From a virus, in IMG/VR virus record IMGVR_UViG_3300037961_002566, positions 1 to 52,250 of that record: DNA of 52,250 nt. One strand, written 5' to 3'. A model generated the notes under the pieces. That model saw nothing but the letters and a program-made list of their open reading frames with translations, had not been told where the DNA came from and did not search any database. The position numbers were made by a program, and so were the translations under genes. Each line of letters opens with the position of its first letter. The stretch's first letter is position 1. This document shows positions 15,427 to 40,887 of the stretch, one piece after another.

Positions 15427-16664
15427 TGCTTAATATTTTACAGATAGAAGATCGTTTAAAAGATATGTCACAAGATGCTGTTATGGAAGCATTAAATAAC
15501 CCTAACCCTGTTATACCTCCTTTTATGGCTTTAGCTGAACTCAACAGGCGTAAAAGAATGAATGATGATTTAGCGATGAGGCAGGCACAAAATCAACAGA
15601 CAGTTAAAGATCAGGTAATAGCAGGGGCAGGTATGCCTATGGAAATGGCATCAGACATGGCTACAGCTATGGCTCCTAAATCAGATATAGCAGGTAATAC
15701 AGGATTAGAAGCAATGATGCAGAGCAACACTCTGCCATCAGAATATAATGATGATATAGCCATGATGGACACAGAGTTTGAAGATGAGCCTATGGAGATG
15801 GCATCAGGCGGTCTTGTTGCAGGGGGTATGAACAAAGCAGGTGCAGGAGCATTTTTAAGAGGATTAACTTCTTTTTTAAAGCCAAAGCCAAGTCCATCAA
15901 CAGGCACGAGTTTAGTGCCTAAAAGCACAGAGGTCGGACCTTACCTAGGTCCGAAAAAACCACCTAGTTTTAATGCTAAAGACCTAATGAGAAAGACAGG
16001 TATATTAGGGCTTGGTGGTTTATTTGCAGGCGATGATGATGAGGAGGATGAAATAGGTCCTGAACAAGGTCCTCCGTTTATGGAGCCAGAAGAGGATGAT
16101 AATCCAGTAGTTGATCCTGATCCAGACCCAACATATGCTCCAAGTTATATACCACAGCTTATGAAACAGTTGCAGGAAGATAGAGAAGCACTAAGAGCAG
16201 GTAGAGATCAGGACATGGGTCTAGCATTAATGACCGCAGGATTAAACATAGCAGACAGAGGTCAGCTATCAGCAGGTGTTGCAGGTGTAGAACAACTAGC
16301 ACAGGCTAATCAAGCATACAGAGAGAACCTCAGAAACCTATCTGGTCTAGGTGTACAGGCAGGTGTAGCAGGAGATACATTAATGCAGAAAGCAATGCAG
16401 GCTAGAATGAGCTACGACAAGTCCATAGAGCTTGCTAAGATGCTAGGAGCAGGAGATTTGATAAAAGGTATCGGAACAATAGGTGATCAGTTGGCTTTAA
16501 TAGAGCAGTCAATACAACTTGGTGTAGATGAAAACGAAATGCCCTTGTCACCAGAAAAAACAGCAATGCTAAATGCAAAGAAAGATGCTCTATCAGAAAT
16601 TTACAGTATGTTGATAGCAAGGACACAAGGAGAACTTGGTAAAAACGTGATTGCGAGTCCGTAA
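15426..16664 (+). CDS. Internal virion protein candidate with GG-tag motif
   Basis: 412 aa. N-terminal region: LKDMSQDAVMEALNNPNPVIPPFMALAEL split by helices, a pattern common in marine phages. Then METMASGGLVAGG-like motif (MEMASGGLVAGGMNKAG, about 125-141), a Pro-rich and very acidic linker (DDDEEDEIGPEQG), and a C-terminal helical domain (QLMKQLQEDREALRAGRDQD; LALMTAGLNIADRG; ELAKMLGAGDLIKG). The acidic linker separates two domains as in other ejected proteins. It directly precedes the giant gene (TAATG). Function unknown; interior location inferred. Confidence 0.6.
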   Translation: MLNILQIEDRLKDMSQDAVMEALNNPNPVIPPFMALAELNRRKRMNDDLAMRQAQNQQTVKDQVIAGAGMPMEMASDMATAMAPKSDIAGNTGLEAMMQSNTLPSEYNDDIAMMDTEFEDEPMEMASGGLVAGGMNKAGAGAFLRGLTSFLKPKPSPSTGTSLVPKSTEVGPYLGPKKPPSFNAKDLMRKTGILGLGGLFAGDDDEEDEIGPEQGPPFMEPEEDDNPVVDPDPDPTYAPSYIPQLMKQLQEDREALRAGRDQDMGLALMTAGLNIADRGQLSAGVAGVEQLAQANQAYRENLRNLSGLGVQAGVAGDTLMQKAMQARMSYDKSIELAKMLGAGDLIKGIGTIGDQLALIEQSIQLGVDENEMPLSPEKTAMLNAKKDALSEIYSMLIARTQGELGKNVIASP

Positions 16665-19600
16665 TGCCGTTAAAGTTAATTAGAAGCCCTGTGACTGGAG
16701 AATACTATCCAGTAAATATTGCAGGTGATACACCCACACCAGAAGAAAAAGAAAGAATAAGGCAATATCTTCTTATGAAAGAAAGAGAAGTGCCTGCCGT
16801 TCAAGAGGAGATACAGAAGAACTACGCTCCTAAATCTGGTTTTGGTGCTTTAGGTGTAGGTGTAGATCAGGCAAAACATCTTGGTTTAAGCTTCCTGCAA
16901 GGCGTGAATAGGATGGTGGGCGATGACGAAGATGCTGACGAATATCAAGAAATGCTAAATAAATTAGGCAGAAAGATACGTCAGGAAAGTGCAGGATTAC
17001 AGAAATTTAAAGAGATAGACAGCATTGGTGATGCGGCTCGATTTGCAGGTGAAACAATCTTGCAAACAATACCATCTACAGCCGTAGCTCTAACAGGTGC
17101 TGCAGCAGGTGTAGCAACATTACCTTTTTCAGGAACAGTATTGGGTGTTGGTGTAAGCGGTGCGTTGGGTGGTGCAGCAGCAAGTCTACCTTTATTTATG
17201 GGTGGAAATAGAGAAGCACAAAAAGAAAGTTTAAGAAGACAAGGTAAACCAGTAGAAGTCGATGAAGGGGCTGCGTTCTTTACTGCCTTACCCCAAGCAT
17301 TACTAGAATCTTGGGGAACAATTTTCATAACATCTATAAAAAAAGCAGGATTAAAAGTAAATCCACAGGCTTTTGAGAGCGGTGGTCTGTTTACTAGATT
17401 AGTGGATAAAGCTACAGGCACAGCACCAAGACGGATAGGTGGTGCTATCGGTACAGGTGCAGTAGCAGAATCAGTAACAGAAGTAGGGCAGTTGCTATTA
17501 GAAAGAAAGCAAGCAGGTATGTCTATAGATTTTAATAACCCAGAGGTATTAGACCAGGTGATAGAGGCAGCCGTAGCAGGGGGTCTAGTTGGTGGTGTGT
17601 TCAAAGGCGGTGTTACAGGCGTTAGTGAGTTTAGCGAAAGAAAGAAGAAAGCAGACAAGCAAACAGAGCTAAACAATGACCTAGAAGAAGAGTATAGACA
17701 AAATGTGGAAATGCAAAAAAATGCACAGCAATCATTTACAAATAACCCTGCATTACTTATGGCGGAAGAAGGATCACCGATCACCGATGGTCTTACCAAA
17801 GCAGGAGATGTACTGGCATCAGAAACGAGAGAGCCTAGACCTGTAAGACCAGACGAGCTAACAGCAAAACAATTAGCAGTCATAAGAAATGAGAGAACAA
17901 AGAAGGGTGTATCTCTGGATGAAACGCAGTTTCCTATTACACTAGAGGAGATAAGAGCAACGCTAGGACCTAGAGAAGCAAGGAGACTAGCATCAAAACA
18001 AGGCATACCAGTAAAAGATATTAACACTGCTACAGTTAATAAGTTTAGCTATGATCAATATAAGAAAGTATTAGAAAGCATCAGAAAAAATAAAGACAGA
18101 GATTTTTCTGAAAACAAAATTAACGCAATCATACAAAAGGCAACAGGATTTAAGTCAGGAGAACTGACACAAGCTATAAGAAACGAGCTTGTTGGTAGAG
18201 GTCATTTAAGAGCTACACAGGATCGTGCTTACCGAATGGAGACAGGTATGTCTATCCCTGTTGGTGAGGTCGAGTTCCAGAAAGCCAGAGAGTTTACAGA
18301 GGGAAGACTAGCAAAAGAATCCAAACAGCTAGACGACAGAATAATAGAAGCAGAAAAGCAACTAGAGACAGGTCAGGTAGAGGGCAGAAAAGAAAGAGGT
18401 AAGAAAAGATTTACCATGCCAACTCTGGCACAACAGTTACAGGACAAGATAGAGCTAGCTAACAAGCTAGAAACTATGAAGGACAATGTTACAGAGTCTG
18501 TAGTGCCTGCCATAAACAAACTTATAAAACCCTACATAGCAAACAAGACAGTCAAGCCTTTCAAGACACCGCTAGATGTGTTCAAGGGCATAAATACAAT
18601 ATTAGGTAGTGCTACAAGCAATAACACAAGAGGTGTACCCTATGGTCTTAGAAAAGAGATAAGAGACCTACAGGAAGAAGTTGCAAGAACAGAAAGAGGT
18701 ATAGAAGCAGATAAGCAAGCACATATGTTCTTACAGACAAGTGATTTTAGTGCTGACAATGTGAAGTTTGGAATGCGAGGGTCAACTCAAGCTAATGATC
18801 CAGAGATGTTGTTTGCAAGACAAAGACAAAAAGAAGAACAACTAAGAAGAAAAGAACAAGAATTAGAAACAGAGCAAGCGACCGCAAGAGAGTTAAAGAA
18901 AAACGTCAGAGTTCTAGCAGATCAAGAAGCATACGAAAAACAAGTAGATAAAATTAAAGGTATTCAAGAAGAAATACAAAAACTAAAAAGAGATGCAAAA
19001 GAGCTAGAAGACATTAGAAGGAAGCCAACAGCTAGTGTCACGCAAAATCAAGGTCAGAACCAATCAAACCAGATGAATGCCACAGCTAATCTGGGTGCAA
19101 AAAATCCTTTTGTTAATGAGTATCAACAGAACCTAAATGAGGTAGGCGATAGATTAAGAAGCTATCTAAAAGATGATCTAAAGCTAAACCCAGACAGGGT
19201 AGAGCTTATAACAAAGAACTACATACAGAAAGATGGCTTTGTCTTTGGTCAGGAACAGAGAGCAGGACACAACAAGAGAGCTATAACCCTAGCCATGCAG
19301 TTGTTTGATCGTGATACGATTGCTGATCCTACAAAGCAAGACATGATCCTAGACAGGATTAAAGGTACGCTAAATCACGAAGTGCTACACTCTCTCAGAG
19401 CGTTAGGATTGTTTACAGAACAGGAGTTCCAAACTCTTGTAAAGGCAGCCAACACAAGAAAGAAAGTCCTATGGCGTGAGGGCAAGGTTGTAGAAAGACA
19501 GTATACATATCTCGACAGAGTAAAAAGAATATACAGAAGAGATAGATTTCCTGACATGGACGAGAAAGCTTTCAACGACATGGTGCAGGAAGAGGCAGTG

Positions 19601-22600
19601 GCTGATCTATTCCAAGATGCTATGGATGGCAAGCTAAAGCTAGGTGGCGTACAAAAGACATTACTACAGAGAATAATAGATTTCTTCAAAGCTATATACA
19701 AAGCCAACATTGACAATGAGTTTGATGATATTAGCCAGATTATAGAGGACGTTAAGTCTGGTAAGATAGGCATGAGAAAACCACAAGAACTTAGCTCTGA
19801 TGATCAGGTTAGGTTCTCACTTGGAGAAGACGTATATAACAATGCCCGAAAAGAAAAAATAAAAATTGATGAGCTTGATGTTTATTCAAGGGTAGAAGGT
19901 GTAAATGCCAACAAGCCAGATACAGAATTTCTAGCTAACTATAAAACCAGAGTAGGTCCTTTGGGTCGTGATATCAGTAAGGTAGGTCATAATCCTGTAG
20001 GCTACAGACCTATCTACGAAGATGAATATGTAAAGACAATATTAGTTCCTACAGATCAAGCCGCTAAGTTGCTTGCCCCAATAGACATAGGAAGTGAGAC
20101 AATCGACTCTATAGCAGAGGGTATAGAGAAATACGATGTAAAGATAAATCCTCCTCAAATATCCGTTGAATTGTCAGAGGACGGAAAGTCCTTACTTGTT
20201 ACTTCAGGAGAAGGAAGGAAAAGAATACAAGCCTTAAAAAAGCTAGGATACAAAAATGTAGCTGTAGACCTTATGTCTAGAAAAGGAAAGGCTTACAAGT
20301 CAGAGTTAGAGGCTTATGCAAAGCCTAAAATACTTATAAACAGAATTGGGTATGACCCTACCAATCCAGACAAAGGTTCTAGAGGTGTAGTCTATAGTAT
20401 AAATGACAACAACTATGCCACCATAACTCAAGAAAGAGACATAGATAAGCTAGGTTTTTACTCCAAAGCCTTGGAAGTCATAGAGAAAATGCCACAGAAA
20501 AAAGGAACAGGAGAGCAGTTCCTTAAATATCTGGAGGGTAAAGTTAAGAAAGATGAGTTGTTGTGGACAGGAGTTCAGGATTATTTAGAGAATACAGATA
20601 AGGTTACTAAAGACGAACTATTAGCTCTTATGAGTTCTAACAGAATATATGTTGAAGAAACAGAATTGCTTGCTTTTGGTAAATCAGAACAGAAGAAAGA
20701 TTTAATCGATTTACCTAGAACGAACATGGAAAGAAATAATGCTACAGAAGATGTGATAGCAGATCGCATGGCATTTGGGCAAAAAAACTATAGAATATCT
20801 AAGAAAAATCTAAGATATCCTGACGAGTTATCAAGTAAAATAGAGCAGGGATCAGTCAGAGTATATGAAGGGGATGTCATATCTATTGCTGACCTTGTTA
20901 ATAACAGAAAATTGAATAATGAAACTTTGATGTTATTAGGTGATGCCGATATAGGATTTATAGAATCAGAGCAAGAAATAGACAAACTTTCAAAACAAGC
21001 AGGACTTAAATACCAAATAATAGAAGTAAGAGATGAAGCAGGTGCAAGAGATTTTGTAGAACGGGAGAAAATAAAATTAAGAGACAATAAAGAAGAGCTA
21101 GAAGAAAGAGAGGAGAGCGGTGGATTTATCCCTGAAGGTGTTAGGTATGAGATTGAAGACTTAGAAAACTCAGTAGCAGGATACGAAGACTTTTATGGTA
21201 ATTTAACTGGTGATGCGTTTGATGCATATGAAGACAAAGTAGAAGGAGTAGTAGGAAACAAGTTTTATGTATTACGATTTGAGGGAAACACAGAAGAAGA
21301 AATATTAGAGGACAGAAGTAAACAAAAATATGATCAAACAACACTAGAGAGACACGGCATAATTAAAAGAGAAGGAGAATCATATGAGCGTCAGACTCCA
21401 ATTATTGTGGAACTAACAGAGGATATAAGAGTTAATTCAGTTAAAAGAGGTGACTTTGGAACTGACGAGGATGTAAAGGCGTATCAAGAATTAAGAGAAA
21501 AACAAAATAATATAATACTCACAGAAAATTTTAAAATAAGAAAGAAACAAGAAGAAATTGATGCACAAAACAGTGAAATTAGAAGATTTAATCAAACATT
21601 ACTTCCTGCTGATAACGAAGCATCGACTGCAGCGGGTGGAACAAATTACAGAGTTTTTGAGATTGAACTGCCTGCTGAAGCGTTCCCAAAATTAAAATAT
21701 AATCCTGTACATTTTAAAGGTGAGAGACAATTAGTGTTTGCTTTGGCTAAAGACAGGATCATGCCTGATGGAAGAAAAGCGTTAACTATTCAAGATTTTC
21801 AAAGTGACTGGGGTCAGAGAGGAAGGAAGCTGGGATTTACAGAGCCAGTATTAAGACAGGATGTAGATTACAGTGTAAGACAGATAAGAGATATTATTAA
21901 AGGTCTTAGGGCATTGTTTCAACAAAGGTTAGACCAGTTGGCAGAGGGAATAAATGTAACCAAAGCAAGTGATCAATATTTAGAGAAGATAGTTAAAAAA
22001 CGGCAACAACAATTAGATGAATTTGAAAAAAACATAGAGGAGAATATAAAGCAAGTATATAAACGTGGCTTTCCTCTCAAAGAAGGCACAAAAAATATAG
22101 AGATGATTAATAAGGCAGGCTCTGAATTAGACAGGTTAACACAAATCTCCTCTTACGATTCGATATTTCCTGAGTTAGATGATGCAATGGAACCTGTTAA
22201 TGTTAGTTTTAGAAATCTTTCAACATCTAAACTAGATAGATTTAAGGGATTTGGTAAATATCCTAATGCTCCTTTTATAACACAGACACAGCACTGGTCT
22301 AAGTTGATGATCAAGCGTCTTCTAAAAAGAGCATCAGATGAGGGATATGACTATTTAGTATTTTCAGGTGGTGATGTGCTTGTTAATCAGTTGGGTCAGC
22401 CAGAAGGCAATAATAGTTTTTATGATGATCAATTACCAGGATTCGTAAGAGATGTATTAAAGCCTCTGGACAAAGAAGCTTTTATAGGAAGATACCAAGA
22501 TCAACTTAGAAAATTAATTAATAGGGGTATGGCAGAGCTAACTCAACAAGAGAGAGAAAGCATATTAAATGTTTACGATGGAATGAAATCAGATGTTAGT

Positions 22601-25600
22601 ATAGAAAGAGAAGACAGTTTTTCTAATTATACTCCAGAACAACGTCAAGAGATGGTTGATGCAATAGTCAAGTTAAGGCAAACCAATGGGGCTACTCAGG
22701 CTTTAGTGCTAAACGCAATTCAGCGTGATCAATTTGGAAAAATAAAACTACAGTACATGGCACGAACTATAAGAAATAGTAAGCCTCCACCCGATGCAGA
22801 CAGACTAGCTAAACTAAAAGCAGCTAACATAGATGTTACGGCTATGTTATCAAGACCATTAGCTGAAATATTTCAAAAGAGGTTGCCAACAGGTGAAGCG
22901 ATCCCTGTAACCCAAGAACAATTAGAAAAAGAATACAAAGCAATAATGTCACAAACGGTGTCATTTCCTAGGTATGATGGAGAAACAAATCCAAGAGGAG
23001 AAGTTCTTTCTACAACATCAAGATCATACAAAAAGTACTATGATACTTTTATAAGTCATGACGAAAACGGAAAACCCAGAGAAGGAACAGACCTTGGCTT
23101 AATGTATTATGATAATATAAATGATAAACCCTCTGCATTCAACTCACACGACACGGTTAAACAGGAAGCCAGGCGTGACTATAGAGCGTTACATAAAAGC
23201 TATGCCATAAGACTAACAAAAAAACTAAAAGAACAGTTAGAGTTAGGTCAGGAGTTATTTTCTCTTGGATACACACCTGAAGGAGACAAGGTTACTGGGA
23301 TAGATAAGACTCTTATGGAGAGAGTTATATCAACTCTTACAGAGAACCAGTATCTCATATCCTCACTGCCAGAACTAGAGGATGACCCAAAGGGCGATCC
23401 GACACTTAACTTTAGAAATCTAATACCGTCCACAGGAAGAAGAGATGTGGCTGTGGTCATGAGAGATTATCTCTCACACAGACAGAACAGAGCAGGTGAC
23501 TTTAGAATAAACCTAGATGACGTAACGGATGCAGATAAAGAAAGCATCGCTACGATAATGGCAGCCGAAGCAGAGGTTGCATTAGCCAGAGATGGCAATG
23601 CTCTTGGTTGGTATGACGCTAAGTTTAGAGCGGCTAAAAGTCTAATCGGTCTTATACGCCCAGAGATACTCAATAATCCTGAACACGATGCAGTGTTTGA
23701 TTATGCTTTGGCAGTTACATCCAATGGTGTAGCAGTAATGCAGAACTTTGAATATGCGTTGAAGCAATATGATTATTGGGTTGAAAACGGCAAGTTTGAT
23801 GAAATAGGGTATGGAAAATCAAAAGGAGCTATGGAAGCTCACTTTGCATTGTATAACGCTCTTACAGATATGATGAAGTCTGGTGACTATAAGAGACCAA
23901 AGAGACTAGACAACTACCCACCAGAAGCCATAGGCGTGGACATTGAGCATTTCTTAGACAGAGATATAAAAATAAGAGACCTGATAAATGACCCTGTGTT
24001 GAGTGGTATTGCAGAGAAGAGTGGCGTAAGTCTTGAATCTTTAGGATCACAGGAAAAGAAAGATACTGTGGTCAAGATGTCTACCATCATAGGATCGAAG
24101 ATAGGTGGTGGGTTCTATCAGAACCTCAGAGGTAACTACGATACCCTAACTATGGATATGTGGTGGATGAGGTTCTTTAATAGAATTACAGGAAACCCAT
24201 TTAAAACACCTCAAGACAAAACTCAGTTAAAAAATTACAACCAATTTCTTGAAGAAATTACAGTAAACAGAGCAAATCTTACAGATATAGAGAAGAGACT
24301 TCTAAAAGAAGCTAGAGACAACATAGGTAATGTTCCTCTGCGTAGAGACATGGTGGCAAGAACAACGCAAAGAATGGATCAAAGAATAATTGATCTGGCA
24401 AAAGAATACTCAGTAATACGAAATCGTTATTATAATTCTGTATCTAATCAGGGAGTGGTGGATGGTATGACAGCAGAGGAAAGGGCTGTCATAAGAAGAA
24501 GAAATAGAGAGCAAAACAATCTTCTTGTTAAGCCAAGGTCTGTTTTGTTAGCCGATAGCATAAAGAGAAACTTTGTTGACATTGGTCAAGACACCCCAAG
24601 AAGTGCCACTGATCGTGAGTTGATGAGAGAAACCACACAGATGGCTATAAGAAAATTAGAGCAACGTGGCGTAGTGCCAAAAGGAGCATTGACTAATGCT
24701 GATTTCCAAGCTGTTATGTGGTTCCACGAAAAGGAACTCTTAGATAAGCTAGGAGCAAGAAAAGGGAACGGACAACAAAATGATTTTGTAGACAGTGCTA
24801 TAGAAGCACTAAGAAAGGAAGGTATAGACGATGACACGATTGCGAAAACACTCCCCAATGCAGAGCGAGGCAGGATCATTCGTGGAGCAGATTCCGAAAG
24901 AAGAGTTGCCGAACCTAGCGAAGGCTCTATTGCGGCTAGGCAACAACTCGCAGCTTTCAAAAGCGTTAAAGAAAAGAACGACATCACAAGAAAACAAGCA
25001 GAAGACATCAAGAAAGAGCTAGATCAAGATCGACAGAAGTACTACAGCTTGGGATACATCCCAGAAGAAAGAGAAAGAGACAGAGCAAACTTTGAAAGCA
25101 CACTGAGAGCTAACGTGCAGGACTTCCAACACAAATGGAACTACAGTGCATCATCAGACTTTGTAGCTAAAATACTAGGTGGCATCAAGATAGGTCAAAG
25201 CTTTCAGCTAGGATACAGTGATGAAAAAGCCAAAGCATTATCTGATCTGTTTATTAGAAAGTTCCAAGACAGAATGATACCTGTGTCTAGAATGGTGGAT
25301 GAGTTACAGGAAAAAGGCTTTAAACTAACAGATGCTCTCAATCCTATCATGCAAGCTAGACTATCACAGGGTAAAGCAAATGAAGAAATACGAGACAAGA
25401 GAGAGACAATCCACAAGGATGTGGTCGAAGCTGTAGCAAAGCTTAACTTTACAGATGCAGAGTTTGAGCAACTCAAGAGCGTATCGAATGCTGCCACTGA
25501 CCCTGACCAAGGAGGTGAGGGCTACATAGAGGTGGTCATGAAAGATTTCATGCCATCGTTCTGGAGAAGGATGTTGTTTGGCACACCAAGCAAGAAGTTG

Positions 25601-28153
25601 GTCATGGCAGAAACATATCTCTATGCTCTACACGCTAAAGAGAGAAACAACTATGTCAGAGAGATTGATGTAAACAACATCAATCAATTTAAGGACAGAG
25701 GTTCTGGTATGTCTGACAGAGAAGCAGATGCCATATTGAACTGGTTTAGAAACCAGGAGAGAGAACTAGAAAACTTAAACGACATACGCACAAAGATACA
25801 AAGAGTAATAGACGATACCAACGAAGTGAGAAGAAACTCTGGTTTACAGGCTATGTTCTTACGAGGGTCAAACTGGACGAACTATATACCTTTGAGAGGT
25901 GCTTTCGATCCAGAAGATGAGACCGTTGACTTTAACAATGCAGGTCAGCGTAAAGCCCCACTGTTTGGTAGTAAAGGTAGAGAAGACCCTGTAGTCAAAG
26001 GTAGAATAGATTATGCTCCAAATCTAATTGTAAACACATTAACACAGAACGCTAATTCCATCATGAGAGCGGCTCAGAATAACGTAGGTCGTGTGGTGTT
26101 GGACATGATCAGAGAAGACCCTGTGATGCTCCAAGAGTTTGCAACCATACAGGACACAGTTCCAGAAAGAATGTTTGTGGATGCACGAACAGGGGTTCTA
26201 AGCAAGAGACCTGCCACAAGGGATGATGTTGCTAAAGACAAGCACATATTGATTGTGAAAGAAAACGGCAACGAAGTTGTCATACGGTTTAATAGTGCTG
26301 TGGTTGCAGGGGCGTTCAGAGGTGATACTGGTGCAGGAGATGCAGCAAGCAACTCTTACTTGATGATGGCTAACAAGTTTAACAGATACTTGTCTAGTAT
26401 TAACACCACGTTTAACCCAGAATTTATTATTCCGAACTTTGTCCGTGACATACAAACAGCGGCGGTCAACATCGATCAGTACGAGGGTGAGAGACTAAAA
26501 AGAATAGTTGTCAAAAGATCATTTGCTATGGCTAGGGGTATATATAGTGCTGTGCAGAAGAACGATATGTCCTCACCAGAGGCACAGATGTACGATGCTT
26601 TTGTAAAAGCAGGAGGTAAGAACGTAACCAACCAGATGACGACACTTGGTGATCAGGTTGCTGATATACAAAACACCTTGAATGCCATATCTGAAGGCGG
26701 AGCTAGGGGTGGGTTAGCCAAAATGAAAGACAACTTTGTAGGTAAAAAAGTTACATCGTTAATAAACTGGATAGAGAATACCAACACTGCTATGGAGAAC
26801 GCAGTTCGTGTATCCACATTTGAAGCTTTGTTAAATACAGGTCGATACACAGAGCAACAGGCAGCCCTAGCCGCCAGAGAGATTACAGTAAACTTTGCTA
26901 GAGGTGGTGAGTATAAAACATTCCTAAACTCTTTGTATCTGTTCTTCAACGCATCATTACAGGGAACATTCGCCCTAGCAGAAGCCGCCACACGATCAAA
27001 GAATGTAAGACGTTTGTGGGTGGGCATAGTTGTAGCAGGTATATTGTCTGATCAAATCAATGCATTCTTTTCTGATGAAGATGAAGATGGCATTCTTATT
27101 TACGATAAAACAACAGACTTTACATTAGAGCATAATTTTCTCATACCTAATTTAGCAGGTAAGGCTATGGATGCTGTAAGAGATGAAGAAGATAATGTAC
27201 TCCAGAAGAACTCTTTCTCTATCCCACTGCCCTACGGAATAAACTTAGCGTTTAATGTGGGTCGGTCTCTCAGCAGAAGAATGAGAGGGGCATACACTCC
27301 TGCACAGGCTACAAGTTCTATAATGTCAACAACATTGGAAGCTCTTAATCCTTTAGGTGGTTCCGAAAGCATTGCTAACATGGCAGCTCCTACGATTGGT
27401 GACCCATTAGTTAGTCTTTGGCAAAACATAAATTACGATAAAACACCCATAACAAAACAAGTATCGCAGTTTGCGGTGGGTACGCCAGATAGTCAGACAT
27501 ACTGGAATAGTGCAAGTCCTATGTCTATAAGCATCGCTCAGTTTTTAAACAGAGCATTAGGTGGGAACGAAGTAAAGAGCGGAATGATAGATGTCAGTCC
27601 AGATACGTTGGACTTCCTGTTCAACTATTTTACAGGTGGTGCAGGTATGTTTGTCCAAAGGACAGCCACATTTGGATATGACTTGTCTACAGGGAATGTC
27701 TTTGAAGCATTTGAAGATGGTCTCACGGGAGAAGCGGTTAGGGAACAGATTAGGAAAACACCAATACTTAGAAAAGCTATTACGTCCGTATCAGAAAGAG
27801 AAGATACAGGTAAGTTTATACAGAAAAGAAACGTCATATTCGGTGCGAAGAAAGAACTAAAAGAAGCCATAGCTAGTAGAGATATGGACGAGATTAGAAG
27901 AGTTAGAAATAAGTTTCCTAAAGAGTTAAGGATATATGGAATAATCAGAGCCATAAACACCAAGAGACAGAAGCTTACATCACTCAGAAACAAACTGATC
28001 AGAGCAGAAAAGACAGCCAAGAACAAAGATGTATACGAAGCTAGGATAAAGAGATTAGATAAGCAGATACAGGCTTTGATAGGCAGAGGTAATTCTCTAA
28101 TGAAGAATATCGAACTCGATTTCTTTACAGAGTATGGCTTAACAGGGTATTGA
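16664..28153 (+). CDS. Giant polyvalent/ejected virion protein, 3829 aa
   Basis: One intact frame of 3829 codons. Seen: a Gly/Ala-rich hydrophobic stretch (about 125-180); coiled coils (about 540-790); a metallopeptidase-like NHEVLHSLRALG (HExxH at 905-909) with a possible third ligand in EEAVADLFQD (about 976); a GEGRKRIQALKKLGYKN block, ParB-like in look (about 1185); the polyvalent-protein block NYRVFEIELP, TIQDFQSDWGQRGRKLG, QTQHWSKLMIKRLL (about 1660-1885); GNYDTLTMDMWWMRFFNRIT (about 2490); YLYALHAKERNN with GSGMSDREADAIL (about 2985-3020); FNPEFIIPNFVRDIQTA (about 3250, LPD38-like) and further membrane-prone segments. Such phage polyvalent proteins are thought to be carried in the virion and injected. 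No RNA polymerase motifs are recognised. Confidence 0.75.
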   Translation: MPLKLIRSPVTGEYYPVNIAGDTPTPEEKERIRQYLLMKEREVPAVQEEIQKNYAPKSGFGALGVGVDQAKHLGLSFLQGVNRMVGDDEDADEYQEMLNKLGRKIRQESAGLQKFKEIDSIGDAARFAGETILQTIPSTAVALTGAAAGVATLPFSGTVLGVGVSGALGGAAASLPLFMGGNREAQKESLRRQGKPVEVDEGAAFFTALPQALLESWGTIFITSIKKAGLKVNPQAFESGGLFTRLVDKATGTAPRRIGGAIGTGAVAESVTEVGQLLLERKQAGMSIDFNNPEVLDQVIEAAVAGGLVGGVFKGGVTGVSEFSERKKKADKQTELNNDLEEEYRQNVEMQKNAQQSFTNNPALLMAEEGSPITDGLTKAGDVLASETREPRPVRPDELTAKQLAVIRNERTKKGVSLDETQFPITLEEIRATLGPREARRLASKQGIPVKDINTATVNKFSYDQYKKVLESIRKNKDRDFSENKINAIIQKATGFKSGELTQAIRNELVGRGHLRATQDRAYRMETGMSIPVGEVEFQKAREFTEGRLAKESKQLDDRIIEAEKQLETGQVEGRKERGKKRFTMPTLAQQLQDKIELANKLETMKDNVTESVVPAINKLIKPYIANKTVKPFKTPLDVFKGINTILGSATSNNTRGVPYGLRKEIRDLQEEVARTERGIEADKQAHMFLQTSDFSADNVKFGMRGSTQANDPEMLFARQRQKEEQLRRKEQELETEQATARELKKNVRVLADQEAYEKQVDKIKGIQEEIQKLKRDAKELEDIRRKPTASVTQNQGQNQSNQMNATANLGAKNPFVNEYQQNLNEVGDRLRSYLKDDLKLNPDRVELITKNYIQKDGFVFGQEQRAGHNKRAITLAMQLFDRDTIADPTKQDMILDRIKGTLNHEVLHSLRALGLFTEQEFQTLVKAANTRKKVLWREGKVVERQYTYLDRVKRIYRRDRFPDMDEKAFNDMVQEEAVADLFQDAMDGKLKLGGVQKTLLQRIIDFFKAIYKANIDNEFDDISQIIEDVKSGKIGMRKPQELSSDDQVRFSLGEDVYNNARKEKIKIDELDVYSRVEGVNANKPDTEFLANYKTRVGPLGRDISKVGHNPVGYRPIYEDEYVKTILVPTDQAAKLLAPIDIGSETIDSIAEGIEKYDVKINPPQISVELSEDGKSLLVTSGEGRKRIQALKKLGYKNVAVDLMSRKGKAYKSELEAYAKPKILINRIGYDPTNPDKGSRGVVYSINDNNYATITQERDIDKLGFYSKALEVIEKMPQKKGTGEQFLKYLEGKVKKDELLWTGVQDYLENTDKVTKDELLALMSSNRIYVEETELLAFGKSEQKKDLIDLPRTNMERNNATEDVIADRMAFGQKNYRISKKNLRYPDELSSKIEQGSVRVYEGDVISIADLVNNRKLNNETLMLLGDADIGFIESEQEIDKLSKQAGLKYQIIEVRDEAGARDFVEREKIKLRDNKEELEEREESGGFIPEGVRYEIEDLENSVAGYEDFYGNLTGDAFDAYEDKVEGVVGNKFYVLRFEGNTEEEILEDRSKQKYDQTTLERHGIIKREGESYERQTPIIVELTEDIRVNSVKRGDFGTDEDVKAYQELREKQNNIILTENFKIRKKQEEIDAQNSEIRRFNQTLLPADNEASTAAGGTNYRVFEIELPAEAFPKLKYNPVHFKGERQLVFALAKDRIMPDGRKALTIQDFQSDWGQRGRKLGFTEPVLRQDVDYSVRQIRDIIKGLRALFQQRLDQLAEGINVTKASDQYLEKIVKKRQQQLDEFEKNIEENIKQVYKRGFPLKEGTKNIEMINKAGSELDRLTQISSYDSIFPELDDAMEPVNVSFRNLSTSKLDRFKGFGKYPNAPFITQTQHWSKLMIKRLLKRASDEGYDYLVFSGGDVLVNQLGQPEGNNSFYDDQLPGFVRDVLKPLDKEAFIGRYQDQLRKLINRGMAELTQQERESILNVYDGMKSDVSIEREDSFSNYTPEQRQEMVDAIVKLRQTNGATQALVLNAIQRDQFGKIKLQYMARTIRNSKPPPDADRLAKLKAANIDVTAMLSRPLAEIFQKRLPTGEAIPVTQEQLEKEYKAIMSQTVSFPRYDGETNPRGEVLSTTSRSYKKYYDTFISHDENGKPREGTDLGLMYYDNINDKPSAFNSHDTVKQEARRDYRALHKSYAIRLTKKLKEQLELGQELFSLGYTPEGDKVTGIDKTLMERVISTLTENQYLISSLPELEDDPKGDPTLNFRNLIPSTGRRDVAVVMRDYLSHRQNRAGDFRINLDDVTDADKESIATIMAAEAEVALARDGNALGWYDAKFRAAKSLIGLIRPEILNNPEHDAVFDYALAVTSNGVAVMQNFEYALKQYDYWVENGKFDEIGYGKSKGAMEAHFALYNALTDMMKSGDYKRPKRLDNYPPEAIGVDIEHFLDRDIKIRDLINDPVLSGIAEKSGVSLESLGSQEKKDTVVKMSTIIGSKIGGGFYQNLRGNYDTLTMDMWWMRFFNRITGNPFKTPQDKTQLKNYNQFLEEITVNRANLTDIEKRLLKEARDNIGNVPLRRDMVARTTQRMDQRIIDLAKEYSVIRNRYYNSVSNQGVVDGMTAEERAVIRRRNREQNNLLVKPRSVLLADSIKRNFVDIGQDTPRSATDRELMRETTQMAIRKLEQRGVVPKGALTNADFQAVMWFHEKELLDKLGARKGNGQQNDFVDSAIEALRKEGIDDDTIAKTLPNAERGRIIRGADSERRVAEPSEGSIAARQQLAAFKSVKEKNDITRKQAEDIKKELDQDRQKYYSLGYIPEERERDRANFESTLRANVQDFQHKWNYSASSDFVAKILGGIKIGQSFQLGYSDEKAKALSDLFIRKFQDRMIPVSRMVDELQEKGFKLTDALNPIMQARLSQGKANEEIRDKRETIHKDVVEAVAKLNFTDAEFEQLKSVSNAATDPDQGGEGYIEVVMKDFMPSFWRRMLFGTPSKKLVMAETYLYALHAKERNNYVREIDVNNINQFKDRGSGMSDREADAILNWFRNQERELENLNDIRTKIQRVIDDTNEVRRNSGLQAMFLRGSNWTNYIPLRGAFDPEDETVDFNNAGQRKAPLFGSKGREDPVVKGRIDYAPNLIVNTLTQNANSIMRAAQNNVGRVVLDMIREDPVMLQEFATIQDTVPERMFVDARTGVLSKRPATRDDVAKDKHILIVKENGNEVVIRFNSAVVAGAFRGDTGAGDAASNSYLMMANKFNRYLSSINTTFNPEFIIPNFVRDIQTAAVNIDQYEGERLKRIVVKRSFAMARGIYSAVQKNDMSSPEAQMYDAFVKAGGKNVTNQMTTLGDQVADIQNTLNAISEGGARGGLAKMKDNFVGKKVTSLINWIENTNTAMENAVRVSTFEALLNTGRYTEQQAALAAREITVNFARGGEYKTFLNSLYLFFNASLQGTFALAEAATRSKNVRRLWVGIVVAGILSDQINAFFSDEDEDGILIYDKTTDFTLEHNFLIPNLAGKAMDAVRDEEDNVLQKNSFSIPLPYGINLAFNVGRSLSRRMRGAYTPAQATSSIMSTTLEALNPLGGSESIANMAAPTIGDPLVSLWQNINYDKTPITKQVSQFAVGTPDSQTYWNSASPMSISIAQFLNRALGGNEVKSGMIDVSPDTLDFLFNYFTGGAGMFVQRTATFGYDLSTGNVFEAFEDGLTGEAVREQIRKTPILRKAITSVSEREDTGKFIQKRNVIFGAKKELKEAIASRDMDEIRRVRNKFPKELRIYGIIRAINTKRQKLTSLRNKLIRAEKTAKNKDVYEARIKRLDKQIQALIGRGNSLMKNIELDFFTEYGLTGY
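23031..23050. promoter_or_regulatory. Intragenic copy of the palindrome
   Basis: AAAAGTACTATGATACTTTT deviates from the perfect 12791 copy at two positions. It lies deep inside the giant gene, about 5 kb from either end, with no convincing -35/-10 pair next to it. Its codons read Lys-Lys-Tyr-Tyr-Asp-Thr-Phe. Intragenic placement argues for a roadblock or architectural role rather than promoter control. Confidence 0.6.
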
Positions 28154-32249: not shown

Positions 32250-33136
32250 TAGTTATCGTTGTATTGGGAACAGAAATCAGCGACAGCACAATAATTTGAT
32301 TTACATCGTGTGTACTCACCCTTACGAAACTCAATGTCGTGATTTCTTTTATGTACGTCTGCGTCTATCTTATCTGACAGATCGTAAACTAAATCTTCTG
32401 CATCTTGTTTATTGTCGAAAACTCTAAATGCTTTCTTGTTACCCTTTTTAATTACTGCCCACTTATCTTCCTTTGCCCATCTCTCTTTGTCTGTGCATAA
32501 GACAAACTGATCTTCTAGATCAAACAACTGTCGAGCATCTTGATGCACAGTAACTCTCTCGTTTACATACTTGATTCGCTCTTTCATAGACCACAAAGGT
32601 ATGTCTATGTAGGCAACAGGATGCTGTGGATAGTCTGGTTTTAATTTAGCTTGTGTCCTGTTCCAATCTCTAAGTATTGCACATATCTTTATGTTTGTTA
32701 CAGGTCTCTTCTTGTTCTTCTCAAGCAGGTAAGCATACACATTTAACTGATTAACCCACTCTTGCTTATCAAACATTACTGACCAAACAGAAGTAACCTT
32801 GTAATCCGTAATTATTAATTGATCATCTTTTGATTCGTATTGATCTATTGCACCAGATATTTTCCAACCTCTCACCGTGTCATACAATCTTTGCTCTTTG
32901 GTTACGTTCTCAGACTCGCCACTCTCCAAAACAGAGTGAACTGCCGTACCAAACAAAGCAAAAGTCATGTCCATAACATCTGTGGATATCTCTTCCTTAT
33001 GTTGCTCTCGTAACAAAAGAACTCTGGGTGAATCAATAAGCTGAGTAACTGATATATCAGCATCACCTCTACTATATTTATCTGATGTTGCGTAATTTAA
33101 AAAAGAGTCTGGAAGACCATATTTATTAGTAATCAT
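32249..33136 (-). CDS. RecB/Cas4-like PD-(D/E)XK exonuclease
   Basis: 295 aa. FGTAVHSVLE (His67) is the RecB-type motif; WKISGAIDQYE (Asp98) and LIITDYKVTS (Asp111, Lys113) form the D-x(n)-D/E-x-K active site; EWVNQLNVYAYLLEK is the QxxxY motif. The C-terminus has clustered Cys (RCKSNYCAVADFCSQY, about 276-291) as in iron-sulfur Cas4/AddB-type nucleases, though the full four-Cys set needs checking. With Erf it would form a two-component exonuclease/annealing system for recombination. First gene of the leftward operon, behind the AT-rich divergent region. Confidence 0.85.
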   Translation of the reverse strand: MITNKYGLPDSFLNYATSDKYSRGDADISVTQLIDSPRVLLLREQHKEEISTDVMDMTFALFGTAVHSVLESGESENVTKEQRLYDTVRGWKISGAIDQYESKDDQLIITDYKVTSVWSVMFDKQEWVNQLNVYAYLLEKNKKRPVTNIKICAILRDWNRTQAKLKPDYPQHPVAYIDIPLWSMKERIKYVNERVTVHQDARQLFDLEDQFVLCTDKERWAKEDKWAVIKKGNKKAFRVFDNKQDAEDLVYDLSDKIDADVHKRNHDIEFRKGEYTRCKSNYCAVADFCSQYNDN

Positions 33137-33219
33137 TTTATACCTATGCTTTATTATTATTATATTACTATAATATTATTATTGATTATTTTTTAATTAT
33201 ATAATAATTAATACAATAT
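33137..33219. promoter_or_regulatory. AT-only divergent intergenic region
   Basis: 83 bases, almost only A and T, between the leftward nuclease and rightward resolvase genes. Many overlapping TATAAT/TATATT-like boxes exist on both strands (for example the ATATTACTATAATATT stretch). It is the likely divergent promoter for both early operons. Its place between recombination and primase-helicase genes also makes it a candidate unwinding element for a replication origin; no iterons are seen. Confidence 0.5.
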
Positions 33220-33630
33220 ATGTCAACTCAAAATAGAATAAAAGTTTTGTTTAATATAATTTTTACAATCGAGGGCGAACCTGCAAGCAAAGCGAATCAG
33301 CGAAAATTAGTGTTGATTAAAGGTCGAATGGTTCCAATAAAGTCTAAGAAAGCATTGGATTATGTGAAAGAATTTCAGAGACAAATTCCAAAGATTGACC
33401 CTCTCACAGAGGACTATGTCAAGGTGGAGATGATGATCTACTACGCATCCAGAAGACCAGACTTGGACGAATCACTAATCTTAGATTGTATGCAAAATTA
33501 TGTGTACTACAACGACAGGCAAGTAAAAGAGAAGCATATTTATTGGGGTCTAGATAAAGAAAGACCTCGTACAATAATTAGAGTGTCTGAGTATAGAAAG
33601 GAGGATACGCCAGACTACTTGACAAACTAA
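33220..33630 (+). CDS. rusA: RusA-family Holliday junction resolvase
   Basis: 136 aa. FTIEGEPASKANQRKLVLIK followed by IKSKKALDYVKEFQ, then YYASRRPDLDESLILDCMQN with YVYYNDRQVKEKHIYW matches the RusA fold. The conserved acids are the Asp residues of RPDLDES, LDCMQ and YNDRQV, which coordinate magnesium in E. coli RusA. It would resolve four-way junctions made during recombination-driven replication and prepare linear DNA for packaging. It is transcribed away from the exonuclease gene and together with the primase-helicase gene 40 bases downstream. Confidence 0.9.
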   Translation: MSTQNRIKVLFNIIFTIEGEPASKANQRKLVLIKGRMVPIKSKKALDYVKEFQRQIPKIDPLTEDYVKVEMMIYYASRRPDLDESLILDCMQNYVYYNDRQVKEKHIYWGLDKERPRTIIRVSEYRKEDTPDYLTN

Positions 33631-33670
33631 CTAAATAAAAAAATAATACAAACTTCATAGTGGAGATATC

Positions 33671-35419
33671 ATGCTAAACTCAAACATGAGCAACATGGTA
33701 CTCAGTTTAGGTAAAGGGCAACATAAACTACAATGCCCATCGACAGAGTGCCAACAGCGAAAAAAGAAAAATCTTAAAACATTATCCGTTAAGGTGGATA
33801 TGGATGGGGCAGTTTACTATTGCCACCATTGTAACCTTAGTGGTCAAGAATTTTATAATAAACATAGGGAAACTAAAATGACTTCAATACCAAAGATAGA
33901 GAAAAAACCATTGAGTATCAATGGGTTACAGTGGCTTAACAAAAGAGGTATCAGCGAATCAACTGCCGATAAGTTGGGCATTACCACTTGCACACATTAC
34001 ATTCAAGGAGTTGGAAGCGAGACCGAATGTGTGATGTTTCCCTACACAAACAGAGGTCAGGTATACGCATCTAAAATTAGATCGATAACTGAAAAAGGGT
34101 TTGCTTGTTCTGGCTCACCACAAAGCTTTTTTAACTTGGATAGGGTGGACACTACCAAGCCACTAATAATATGTGAGGGCGAGTTGGATGCTCTGTCATT
34201 TATTGAATGTGGTGCAGAGGATGTTGCTTCCGTTGTCAGCGTACCGAATGGAGCGGTGATGAAAGTAGTTGATGAGGAGTTTGCAAAGAAAGACGATAGT
34301 AAGTTCCGTTTCCTGACCAACGCAGAAGAGATGCTAGAAGAGGTGGAGAAAGTAATCATAGCAACTGATTCGGATACAGCAGGACAGGCTATGGCAGAGG
34401 AAATGGCTAGAAGAATAGGTAAGCATAAATGTTTTAAGATAAACTATCCGAAGGATTGCAAGGATGCTAACGATGTTATTCTTAAAAAAAGTACCATAGC
34501 ACTTTTTGAATTGATCGATCTTGCCTCCGCCTATCCAGTATCAGGATTGTATGATGCATCTCAGTTTTACAAAAACTTAGATAGTTTATATTCAGACGGC
34601 TTTGGGAAGGGGGAAAGCACAGGGTTTGATAATGTGGATGAGTTATACACAGTTGTTAAGTCGCAACTCACTATAGTTACAGGTCATCCGTCAAGTGGCA
34701 AATCAGAGTTCATAGATCAGCTCATGGTAAACCTTGCCGTCAATAAGGGATGGAAGTTTGCTGTTGCAAGTTTTGAGAATCAACCAGAGATACATCTAGC
34801 TAAGATTATATCCAAGTATAAAAAGAAACCTTTCTTTGATGGACTGAACCCAAGACTTACAAAAGAGGAATTGGATGATGGTAAGGACTTTATAAAGAAG
34901 CACTTCTACTTTGTGCATCAGCGAGATGGTAGCTTGAGTTCAATTGATTCCCTGCTAGAAAGGATCAGGATTAGTGTATTACGTTATGGTACAAACGCTG
35001 TCGTCATAGACCCATACAACTATATTATGCGACCAACAGATGAACAGGAGACAGCATTTGTGTCTAGCCTGCTTAGTAAGATACGAGTGTTTGCCCAGAC
35101 TTATGATATCCACGTTTGGCTCGTTGCTCATCCGACCAAGATGATGCGAGATAGTTCTGGTAAAGTGCCACCACCTATGGCTTACGATATCTCTGGCTCT
35201 GCTCACTTCTTCTCTAAGACAGATTGTGGTCTAACTATACACAGACCAGACCCTGCAAACAGTAATATCACAGAGGTGCATTGTTGGAAGTGTCGCTACT
35301 CATGGGTGGGTAAGCAAGGACAAACCATACTAAGCTACGATGGATTAACATCTACATACAAACCTTTTGAGCCTTACAAGGGCATAGACGAGTTGTTTTC
35401 TGATGCTCCAGACTTTTAG
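33671..35419 (+). CDS. Primase-helicase (T7 gp4-like)
   Basis: 582 aa. An N-terminal zinc finger has Cys22, Cys27, Cys51 and Cys54 (CPSTEC ... CHHC). A TOPRIM primase core follows: IICEGELDALS (about 165-175) and VIIATDSDTAGQAMAEEMAR (about 229-248) with DANDVI. The C-terminal half is a DnaB/RecA-type helicase with Walker A GHPSSGKSE (about 338-346), ASFENQP, and Walker B-like AVVIDPYNYI (about 443-452). Like T7 gp4 it would unwind DNA and prime the lagging strand. No phage DNA polymerase is coded in the window to work with it. A palindrome copy lies within the gene (34487-34506). Confidence 0.9.
   Translation: MLNSNMSNMVLSLGKGQHKLQCPSTECQQRKKKNLKTLSVKVDMDGAVYYCHHCNLSGQEFYNKHRETKMTSIPKIEKKPLSINGLQWLNKRGISESTADKLGITTCTHYIQGVGSETECVMFPYTNRGQVYASKIRSITEKGFACSGSPQSFFNLDRVDTTKPLIICEGELDALSFIECGAEDVASVVSVPNGAVMKVVDEEFAKKDDSKFRFLTNAEEMLEEVEKVIIATDSDTAGQAMAEEMARRIGKHKCFKINYPKDCKDANDVILKKSTIALFELIDLASAYPVSGLYDASQFYKNLDSLYSDGFGKGESTGFDNVDELYTVVKSQLTIVTGHPSSGKSEFIDQLMVNLAVNKGWKFAVASFENQPEIHLAKIISKYKKKPFFDGLNPRLTKEELDDGKDFIKKHFYFVHQRDGSLSSIDSLLERIRISVLRYGTNAVVIDPYNYIMRPTDEQETAFVSSLLSKIRVFAQTYDIHVWLVAHPTKMMRDSSGKVPPPMAYDISGSAHFFSKTDCGLTIHRPDPANSNITEVHCWKCRYSWVGKQGQTILSYDGLTSTYKPFEPYKGIDELFSDAPDF
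34487..34506. promoter_or_regulatory. Intragenic palindrome copy
   Basis: AAAAGTACCATAGCACTTTT lies between the TOPRIM and helicase parts of the primase-helicase gene, in the linker-coding region. One base departs from the inverted symmetry. No convincing promoter boxes are in register. Confidence 0.6.
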
Positions 35420-35490
35420 TTGGACATGGTGGACATGATGATAAGTGGCATATCCTGTGGCGGAAAAACCACAAACCACAAAATATAGCA

Positions 35491-35520
35491 TTGACAACAA
35501 ACCAAAATCGTCCGTATATT
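35491..35520 (+). promoter_or_regulatory. Strong sigma70-like promoter
   Basis: A perfect TTGACA (35491-35496), an 18-base spacer and TATATT (35515-35520). The predicted start is near 35527. No gene follows; an intrinsic terminator comes only about 50 bases later, so the promoter appears dedicated to a short RNA. Confidence 0.7.
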
Positions 35521-35526
35521 ATCGAA

Positions 35527-35597
35527 TGTGAATAGCACTACCTATGCGAAATCACTTCACTATGACAAACTTGGGTCTCTTCGGAGACCCTTTTTTT
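35527..35597 (+). ncRNA. Candidate small RNA, about 70 nt
   Basis: Bounded by the promoter at 35491-35520 and the terminator at 35573-35597. The 5' part can fold by pairing GTGAA (35528-35532) with TTCAC (35556-35560), leaving an inner GCA/TGC hairpin; a short single-stranded ACTATGACAAACTT stretch precedes the terminator stem. This is the layout of a bacterial regulatory RNA ending in a U-rich terminator. A 43-codon frame beginning at the ATG in CCTATGCG runs straight through the terminator and is not considered coding. Target and function are unknown. Confidence 0.55.
35573..35597 (+). terminator. Intrinsic terminator with TTCG loop
   Basis: GGGTCTC (35573-35579), loop TTCG, GAGACCC (35584-35590) and seven T's (35591-35597): a perfect 7-bp stem with a very stable tetraloop. 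It ends the small RNA and would also stop readthrough from the primase-helicase gene. There is no T-run on the opposite strand, so it acts rightward only. Confidence 0.9.
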
Positions 35598-35650
35598 ACA
35601 TCAGCAAAAAATAAACCGCTGGCTTTCACTTCCTGGGAGTCCATGTTTCA

Positions 35651-35670
35651 AAAAGTATCATGGTACTTTT
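35651..35670. promoter_or_regulatory. Palindrome copy in gene-free convergent region
   Basis: AAAAGTATCATGGTACTTTT lies between the rightward small-RNA terminator and the leftward operon terminator, where no gene starts. Just beyond it GATTTAAAT occurs twice (35681-35689 and 35693-35701). The position does not fit a simple promoter operator. Confidence 0.6.
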
Positions 35671-35717
35671 TATGAGATGAGATTTAAATGCTGATTTAAA
35701 TCCTGTTTCGATTAAGC

Positions 35718-40183: not shown

Positions 40184-40887
40184 TAGAACGATATCTTCTT
40201 TTGACCTGCAACATCGGATACAGGTGCTAGAGCATCAGCAATTGCGGTAACCTTATTGTTAAGCTTCTTAACTTCCGCTCCTGCTTTCTTAGCCTTAGAC
40301 ATTTTCTTTTTGGCTTGATCTTCAAAAGATTGTCTAGTCGCTATGGCTTCTTCTAGCCTGCTCTTTAGATCAAGAACAACATCCATATCTTTACCGCCCT
40401 TGTATTTAGTTCCGCACTTGGCAGGAACACCAACAACAGAGTCGATAACTTTCTGGACAAAGTCTCTGTTAGCTTCCTTGTTAGGGTTGCATATGTCCAT
40501 CAACTTAGCTTCAGAAGTGATCTTGTACCGCTCCATCACGTTTACGATATGGTCTACACTTGTATCGTTTTGACCTGCGAAAGCATCATTCTTGAGTACT
40601 AAGAACTGATGTAACCAACTAAGCTTTTCAGCTTTCTTCTTTTGTTGATTATCGTTTAAGCCTGCTTCCATGAGACCTTCTCTAATAGTCGCAAGATCGT
40701 CAGACTTTAGTTCTGTCTTCCTGCTTATGATCGCAGAGGTTGAAAGCATAGTCGCATAGGTCTGGCAATTTGAAAGATTGATCTTCTCAGAGTTCTTCTT
40801 GTTGTTGCCCTTTAGTCTATTGATTGAAAGATCAAGAGACTTGATAGAGGATATAGCATCCTGTGTAAGATTGATTTTAGTGTTCAT
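40183..40887 (-). CDS. Unknown helical protein, first gene of MoxR/VWA operon
   Basis: 234 aa, almost wholly helical: SSIKSLDLSINRLKGNNKKN, SDDLATIREGLMEAGLNDNQ, LKSRLEEAIATRQSFEDQ and a Lys-rich coiled coil (KKKMSKAKKAGAEVKKLNNK), ending GQKKISF. No recognised motif. It is preceded by a GAAAGGAA ribosome-binding site and by a long hairpin-rich leader. Being first in an operon with a AAA+ ATPase and a VWA protein, it could be the adaptor or the protein the complex acts on. This is inference from gene order. Confidence 0.6.
   Translation of the reverse strand: MNTKINLTQDAISSIKSLDLSINRLKGNNKKNSEKINLSNCQTYATMLSTSAIISRKTELKSDDLATIREGLMEAGLNDNQQKKKAEKLSWLHQFLVLKNDAFAGQNDTSVDHIVNVMERYKITSEAKLMDICNPNKEANRDFVQKVIDSVVGVPAKCGTKYKGGKDMDVVLDLKSRLEEAIATRQSFEDQAKKKMSKAKKAGAEVKKLNNKVTAIADALAPVSDVAGQKKISF

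Follow-up and report, generated by a model that had tools for sequence, protein, structure and literature searches.

The window, by which we mean the whole 52,250-base stretch of DNA that was analysed (IMG/VR virus record IMGVR_UViG_3300037961_002566), belongs to an uncultured virus of bacteria, and the small-RNA gene described here is common to it and dozens of its relatives. The locus is centred on a primase-helicase gene, which has a RusA gene as a neighbour and, on the opposite strand, genes for a PD-(D/E)XK exonuclease, ERF, a methylase and a DUF2201 protein. In a non-exhaustive look at the large open reading frames and ten scanned proteins we noticed no gene for a DNA polymerase, and the primase-helicase may therefore be the main handle that the phage has on its replication. 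A single open reading frame of 3829 aa (16664-28153) makes up over a fifth of the record. The features of the locus are the following:

33619-33647, plus strand: putative promoter of the primase-helicase gene, TTGACA-N17-AATAAT, from a consensus scan (11/12 matches) and with a predicted start site
33655-33665, plus strand: target site UCAUAGUGGAG in the leader of the primase-helicase mRNA, with 11 contiguous pairs to the sRNA
33671-35419, plus strand: primase-helicase gene, 582 aa, with Toprim_2 and DnaB_C domains; predicted target of the sRNA
35420-35446, plus strand: conserved element, a TTGGACA doublet and ATGATGATAAGT, between the primase stop codon and the sRNA promoter, kept in clades A-G
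35491-35520, plus strand: sRNA promoter, TTGACA (35491-35496), 18-nt spacer and TATATT (35515-35520), from the sequence and a consensus scan
35528-35597, plus strand: predicted sRNA of about 70 nt, delimited by promoter and terminator, with a presumed start about 7 nt past the -10 box
35555-35565, plus strand: seed CUUCACUAUGA, complementary to the ribosome-binding site (RBS) of the primase-helicase, identified by pairing and overlapping the conserved core at 35556-35567
35573-35597, plus strand: intrinsic terminator with a 7-bp stem and UUCG loop, GGGTCTC-TTCG-GAGACCC (35573-35590), and seven T (35591-35597)

The promoter layout in front of the primase-helicase recurs in relatives, and from its position in the window the leader of the mRNA is predicted to be only about 17 nt long and to begin almost at the target site.

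A first-pass annotation of this DNA had reported the TTGACA-N18-TATATT promoter at 35491-35520 and the TTCG-loop terminator at 35573-35597, and the letters are as it claimed. The promoter was called perfect, which is an overstatement, since the -10 box has five of six matches and the total, at a spacing of 18, is 11 of 12. The letters would allow the GTGAA/TTCAC stem that was placed between the two signals, but it is GUGA and UCAC that pair in the predicted fold, and the stem is not conserved in the other clades. The seed is predicted to be mostly unpaired in the free sRNA. It is correct that no gene fits between promoter and terminator: frames of 28 and 43 aa run through the terminator, and there is no conserved open reading frame. 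A small peptide coded by the unit is ruled out, as no frame is conserved. When 16 kb of the window (28-44 kb) were scanned, terminator-like sites were about twofold commoner than in shuffled sequences (19 vs 10.5), and promoter-like sites were no commoner (39 vs 45.9), which makes the unit by itself weak evidence and means that comparative support is required.

Relatives were found by searching IMG/VR with the primase, and those with the unit are metagenomic contigs. The search gave near-identical relatives (L002, L003, L004 and L008), a set at about 64% (L005-L007) and a further set at about 45%; clades C to G and a wider set at about 57% came from scanning for a pattern and from scanning once more with the primase. 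The unit is kept behind the primase in the near-identical and 64% sets, and in seven phage clades (A-G) a promoter, an RNA of about 70 nt and a terminator follow 50-160 nt past the stop codon of the primase-helicase. A strict promoter-plus-terminator scan of 82 loci matched only two conserved families, the window family and one in the 45% set. The -35 box is invariant in all ten units of alignment A4 (clades A-G), the 18-nt promoter spacing is kept in the same clades, and three of the seven pairs in the terminator stem show compensatory changes with the pairing kept. Together, the scan of 82 loci, the invariant -35 box and the covarying stem put the combination of promoter and terminator above chance. 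The distance from the -35 box to the last T is 103-118 bases in 28 of the 30 relatives' units that were measured; two units of clade E measure 72 from a second TTGAC inside the RNA, and their true distance is 106.

Between promoter and terminator only a 12-nt core is conserved (35556-35567, UUCACUAUGACA), with 10 of its 12 positions invariant in the alignment of clades A-G, and the stretch from the -10 box to the core has two invariant positions. The first-pass annotation had proposed to look for conservation of the RNA body between phages, and this core is what is kept, so that conservation is not confined to the terminator. A regulatory RNA gene of about 70 nt is thus well supported by the comparison. 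The conserved element at 35420-35446 is possibly an operator or an element of an origin. Two palindromes, AAAAAGTATCATGGTACTTTTT (35650-35671) and GATTTAAATGCTGATTTAAATC (35681-35702), are also conserved and lie between the convergent terminators, and the arms of the former stay paired through changes in other clades.

The target came to light when the complement of the core was searched for with one mismatch allowed, which gave a match at 33656-33665, directly before the primase start. The leader in the window reads ..ACUUCAUAGUGGAGAUAUC-AUG, and UCAUAGUGGAG forms with CUUCACUAUGA 11 contiguous pairs, one of them G-U, at -18.1 kcal/mol; an equal or better helix was reached by 7 of 2000 shuffled sRNAs and 4 of 2000 shuffled leaders. 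The target site holds the Shine-Dalgarno sequence GGAG and ends 5 nt before the AUG at 33671, and cofolding predicts the helix 33655-33665 x 35555-35565, extended over the AUG. ViennaRNA duplexfold over long regions gave long imperfect duplexes and was uninformative, and contiguous-helix energies took its place. For fit to the sRNA, the primase leader is the second of the 66 called genes in the window, where the better-scoring site (38906) lies inside the DUF2201 gene and is probably internal and not a start, and it ranks first in G003, G004, G009 and G010. Seen from the other side, the window sRNA has its own primase leader first among 35 leaders, and the sRNA unit comes first of nine when the terminators of the window are ranked by fit to that leader. 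Terminator-near sites also fit primase leaders better than they fit the leaders of other open reading frames (Mann-Whitney p = 8e-10), a comparison that uses no RNA alignment at all. A weaker candidate for a second target is the leader of the exonuclease gene (start 33136), where GCAUAGGUA on the minus strand (33141-33149) is complementary to UACCUAUGC in the sRNA (35539-35547).

It was an exploratory search that brought up the pairing, and other clades served afterwards to test it. The coevolution test comprised 35 loci in groups I, II and III. The matched helix energies sum to -649.7 compared to -430.7 +/- 21.3 for permuted partners (0/20000 as good, 35 loci), and permutations within groups were as good in 3, 4 and 1 of 20000 in groups I, II and III. 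When pairs were counted across the helix between sRNA and leader, 91.1% of the cells are paired in group I, with a covariation of 0.198 vs 0.072 +/- 0.029 (0/500), and 96.3% in group III, with 0.230 vs 0.092 +/- 0.039 (6/500). When the helix register is slid the paired cells fall to 20-65%, and no other register nears the true one. Neither the permutations nor the covariation controls correct completely for common descent. The pairing is kept with other letters in AUCAGAGU x ACUCUGAU (L156), GAUCAGAGUGGA x UCCACUCUGAUC (L206), UCGAUAGAG x CUCUAUCGA (L221), GUCUUUGGGAG x CUCCCAAAGAC (L214), AGUCGUGG x CCACGACU (L226) and GUUCUAUGGAGGA x UUCUCCAUAGAAC (L186). Compensatory swaps made by nature are seen here: where the window has seed CACUAUGA and leader UCAUAGUG, clade B has CACUCUGA and UCAGAGUG, and G-C has become U-A in the clade of the window.

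Group III (the 45% set) has its RNA gene upstream of the primase and on the opposite strand, and even there the core of the RNA is able to pair with the RBS of the primase: AGGAGGCUUAAU x AUUAAGCCUCCU (L020), GGAGGCUCA x UGAGCCUCC (L012 and L025) and GGAGGCUAA x UUAGCCUCC (L030). Neighbourhood alone is therefore insufficient to explain the pairing. The helix is weak in L168 and L171, at -10 to -12 kcal/mol ungapped, and the pairing in L030 has p ~0.17 with a shortened leader. No matching RNA unit was found for the leader types L163/L166 and L205/L212, and relatives of the L032 type gave no sRNA match at the primase. L045, L078 and loci like L032 have RNAs with ACUCUCCUCC ahead of a terminator, without a primase match, and several of their genes, the exonuclease among them, have RBSs of the GGAGAG type.

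Computation shows that the unit is conserved, that its RNA can pair, that the pairing falls on the RBS and that the two sites coevolve, and we consider it very probable that the unit encodes an antisense sRNA of the phage which acts in trans to repress translation of the phage's own primase-helicase. The earlier suggestion that the RNA acts on host or phage messengers is narrowed by pairing and coevolution to the phage's primase-helicase mRNA as predicted target. From sequence and comparison, the unit has its own promoter and intrinsic terminator and a predicted short non-coding transcript, the complementarity is limited to an 11-bp helix at an RBS whose gene starts about 1.9 kb upstream, and seed and target co-vary. 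A cis-antisense RNA would be on the opposite strand and overlap its target, whereas this one is on the same strand and downstream.

From the sigma-70-like promoter we infer that a host-type RNA polymerase would start at TTGACA/TATATT and stop at the UUCG terminator, which would give an RNA of about 70 nt. Its seed would pair with the Shine-Dalgarno region at 33655-33665, the first 11 or so nucleotides of a very short leader, and pairing over the Shine-Dalgarno sequence and the start codon should keep 30S ribosomes off. Blocking of the 30S subunit by pairing over the initiation region is established for many sRNAs, and because such a block is expected here, repression is the likely effect rather than activation. 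The U-rich 3' tail would suit help from Hfq. As the sRNA gene adjoins its target and has its own promoter, its dose should follow the genome copy number, and with a constitutive promoter the enzyme driving the replication of the phage could be held back by a negative feedback that depends on dose.

The most serious alternative is a repressor of many early genes, in which an anti-RBS RNA shuts off those genes that share a private RBS, the primase being just one of them. Each record of clades B-G contains GGAGTGA 6-9 times, and 4-7 of these copies are RBSs (4/9, 6/8, 7/9, 5/6, 6/8 and 6/9), mostly of leftward genes; this stereotyped RBS, GGAGUGA, is matched in the core by its 5' half (UUUUUUCACUCU). 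In the window, G009 and G010, GGAGTGA is never an RBS and the sRNAs are without the matching stretch, and in the group III phage L020 GGAGGCT is the RBS of five genes (5/6 occurrences) and the sRNA has UUAAGCCUCC. On this reading the anti-RBS RNA changes with the RBS dialect from lineage to lineage, as GGAGUGA/UCACUC and as GGAGGCUUAA/UUAAGCCUCC. Against this, GGAGUGA may be nothing but an ordinary strong RBS of the B-G lineage, and the plus-strand sRNA of the window has no repeated RBS matches, only the primase and, weakly, the exonuclease start at 33136. We regard the multi-target reading as possible but somewhat short of an even chance. The corresponding general model, where a private RBS and a complementary anti-RBS sRNA would shut off an early-gene set including the primase-helicase, as an RNA counterpart of T4 RegA, we put forward equally tentatively.

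The remaining readings do without repression of the primase. Cores resembling an anti-Shine-Dalgarno sequence pair with many RBSs, host sRNAs of the alpha-R8 family use such a core (PMC12559287) and lambda PreS acts on the host dnaN (PMC12197685), so the RNA might be a conventional sRNA acting mainly on host mRNAs, with the primase match as a by-product; the compensatory changes outside the Shine-Dalgarno core, however, track the primase leader lineage by lineage, and we find a conventional host-directed sRNA improbable. The target site coincides with the predicted transcription start of the primase, and other conserved repeats are found nearby, as could be expected if one sequence, present at the promoter of the primase and in inverted form within the sRNA gene, were a DNA operator bound by a phage regulator, with no RNA pairing involved. 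But in 35/35 loci the match has the antisense orientation relative to the RBS and a terminator directly on its 3' side, it lies at a different place and strand in group III, and it tolerates G-U pairs and covaries, all of which make operators highly improbable. An origin transcript or a replication primer, which is an old idea for lambda OOP, would suit a unit that adjoins the primase-helicase among conserved repeats and palindromes; we give it just as little credence, since a strong terminator follows directly, the location of the gene varies by group, and a coevolving seed would be left unexplained. Convergent genes require terminators at this locus, yet promoter, spacing, length and core are all conserved, and that the unit is a mere terminator of the primase operon with a fortuitous promoter is hardly credible.

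Compared with Rfam, the window unit had no match at gathering scores and only chance-level ones below them, and the covariance model of RF00519 (suhB/mmgR; gathering cut-off 41 bits) did not match the plus-strand sRNA. Group II units reach 22.9-38.8 bits with this model, below 41, the best being L199 (38.8, E 1.4e-4), L174 (32.7) and L214 (32.0). RF00519 corresponds to alpha-R8 (Caulobacter SisA-D, Sinorhizobium MmgR), alphaproteobacterial RNAs with a single-stranded anti-Shine-Dalgarno core UUUCCUCCCU upstream of the terminator and a proposed pairing with RBSs (PMC12559287), likewise short and with their own terminator. The core of group II is UUUCCUCCCA, and UUUCCUCCCU is absent from the window sRNA, which differs further from alpha-R8 in having a phage replication gene as target and a target-specific extension of the seed. 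The likeness of group II to RF00519 is a hint that the hosts are alphaproteobacteria and that the RNA perhaps derives from an sRNA of the host; the window unit has neither the match nor the core.

Phage lambda encodes PreS (LPR1), a trans-acting sRNA of ~88 nt that targets host dnaN and bears on replication (PMC12197685), but the window sRNA would act on the phage's own primase-helicase and coevolves with it across many phages. Lambda OOP, lambda aQ and P22 sar are short cis-antisense RNAs controlling phage genes (PMC12197685); they overlap their targets, whereas the window sRNA is encoded on the strand of its target, at a distance of about 1.9 kb, and has a short seed. The T4 RegA protein competes with ribosomes on early phage mRNAs, with about 30 targets (PMC3014915). 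It is a protein that occludes initiation regions, while the agent here would be an RNA, the unit having no conserved open reading frame. With the plasmid antisense RNAs CopA and RNAI, too, gene dose feeds back negatively on a function in replication, but they come from the opposite strand of their target and are fully complementary, and the window sRNA differs in both respects. In the literature searched we found no phage sRNA aimed at its own primase, which does not prove that there is none. A phage BLAST of the intergenic region gave only short matches at the terminator and T-run segment, a scan of a genome collection for the core of clades B-G gave one match that looks like chance, and primase relatives in isolated phages, plasmids and prophages (Planktothrix phage Pag-Yong1, PJN03, Cellulophaga phi10:1, Azospirillum, Microvirga) had no convincing unit.

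Phage sRNAs are usually found singly and with host targets. In the present uncultured phages the prediction of a target comes from the coevolution of sequences alone, and a mutation made by nature exists for each test. Should the proposal hold, RNA would be the means by which these phages throttle their own replication, and the anti-RBS logic would allow early regulons to be predicted for phages from metagenomes.

Other structured RNAs were observed at these loci. A known one, Rfam RF02932 (Betaproteobacteria-1 RNA), adjoins the sRNA gene of group III (L010 4483-4604, L013 4471-4592 and L025 339-461), and as these are phage contigs RF02932 is at least partly phage-borne. In the window, a second RNA converges on the sRNA unit from the minus strand, at about 35855-35717, ahead of a leftward terminator. 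Its 3' part is weakly like Rfam suhB/mmgR (24.4 bits, below the cut-off), and ACCUGU and ACAGGU may form a pseudoknot in it, for which L005 and L118 have matching changes. Near 7497 on the minus strand of L228 (Planktothrix phage Pag-Yong1, an isolated phage), UUUCCUCCCAAC stands just ahead of an intrinsic terminator, as in this minus-strand RNA. A hairpin loop of the window's minus-strand RNA contains UUCCUUUCA, and its complement TGAAAGGAA is found in the window only there and in the RBSs of the genes starting at 40887, 40078 and 31321; the dialect of the window would then be UGAAAGGAA, on three leftward genes, set against the loop of the minus-strand RNA.
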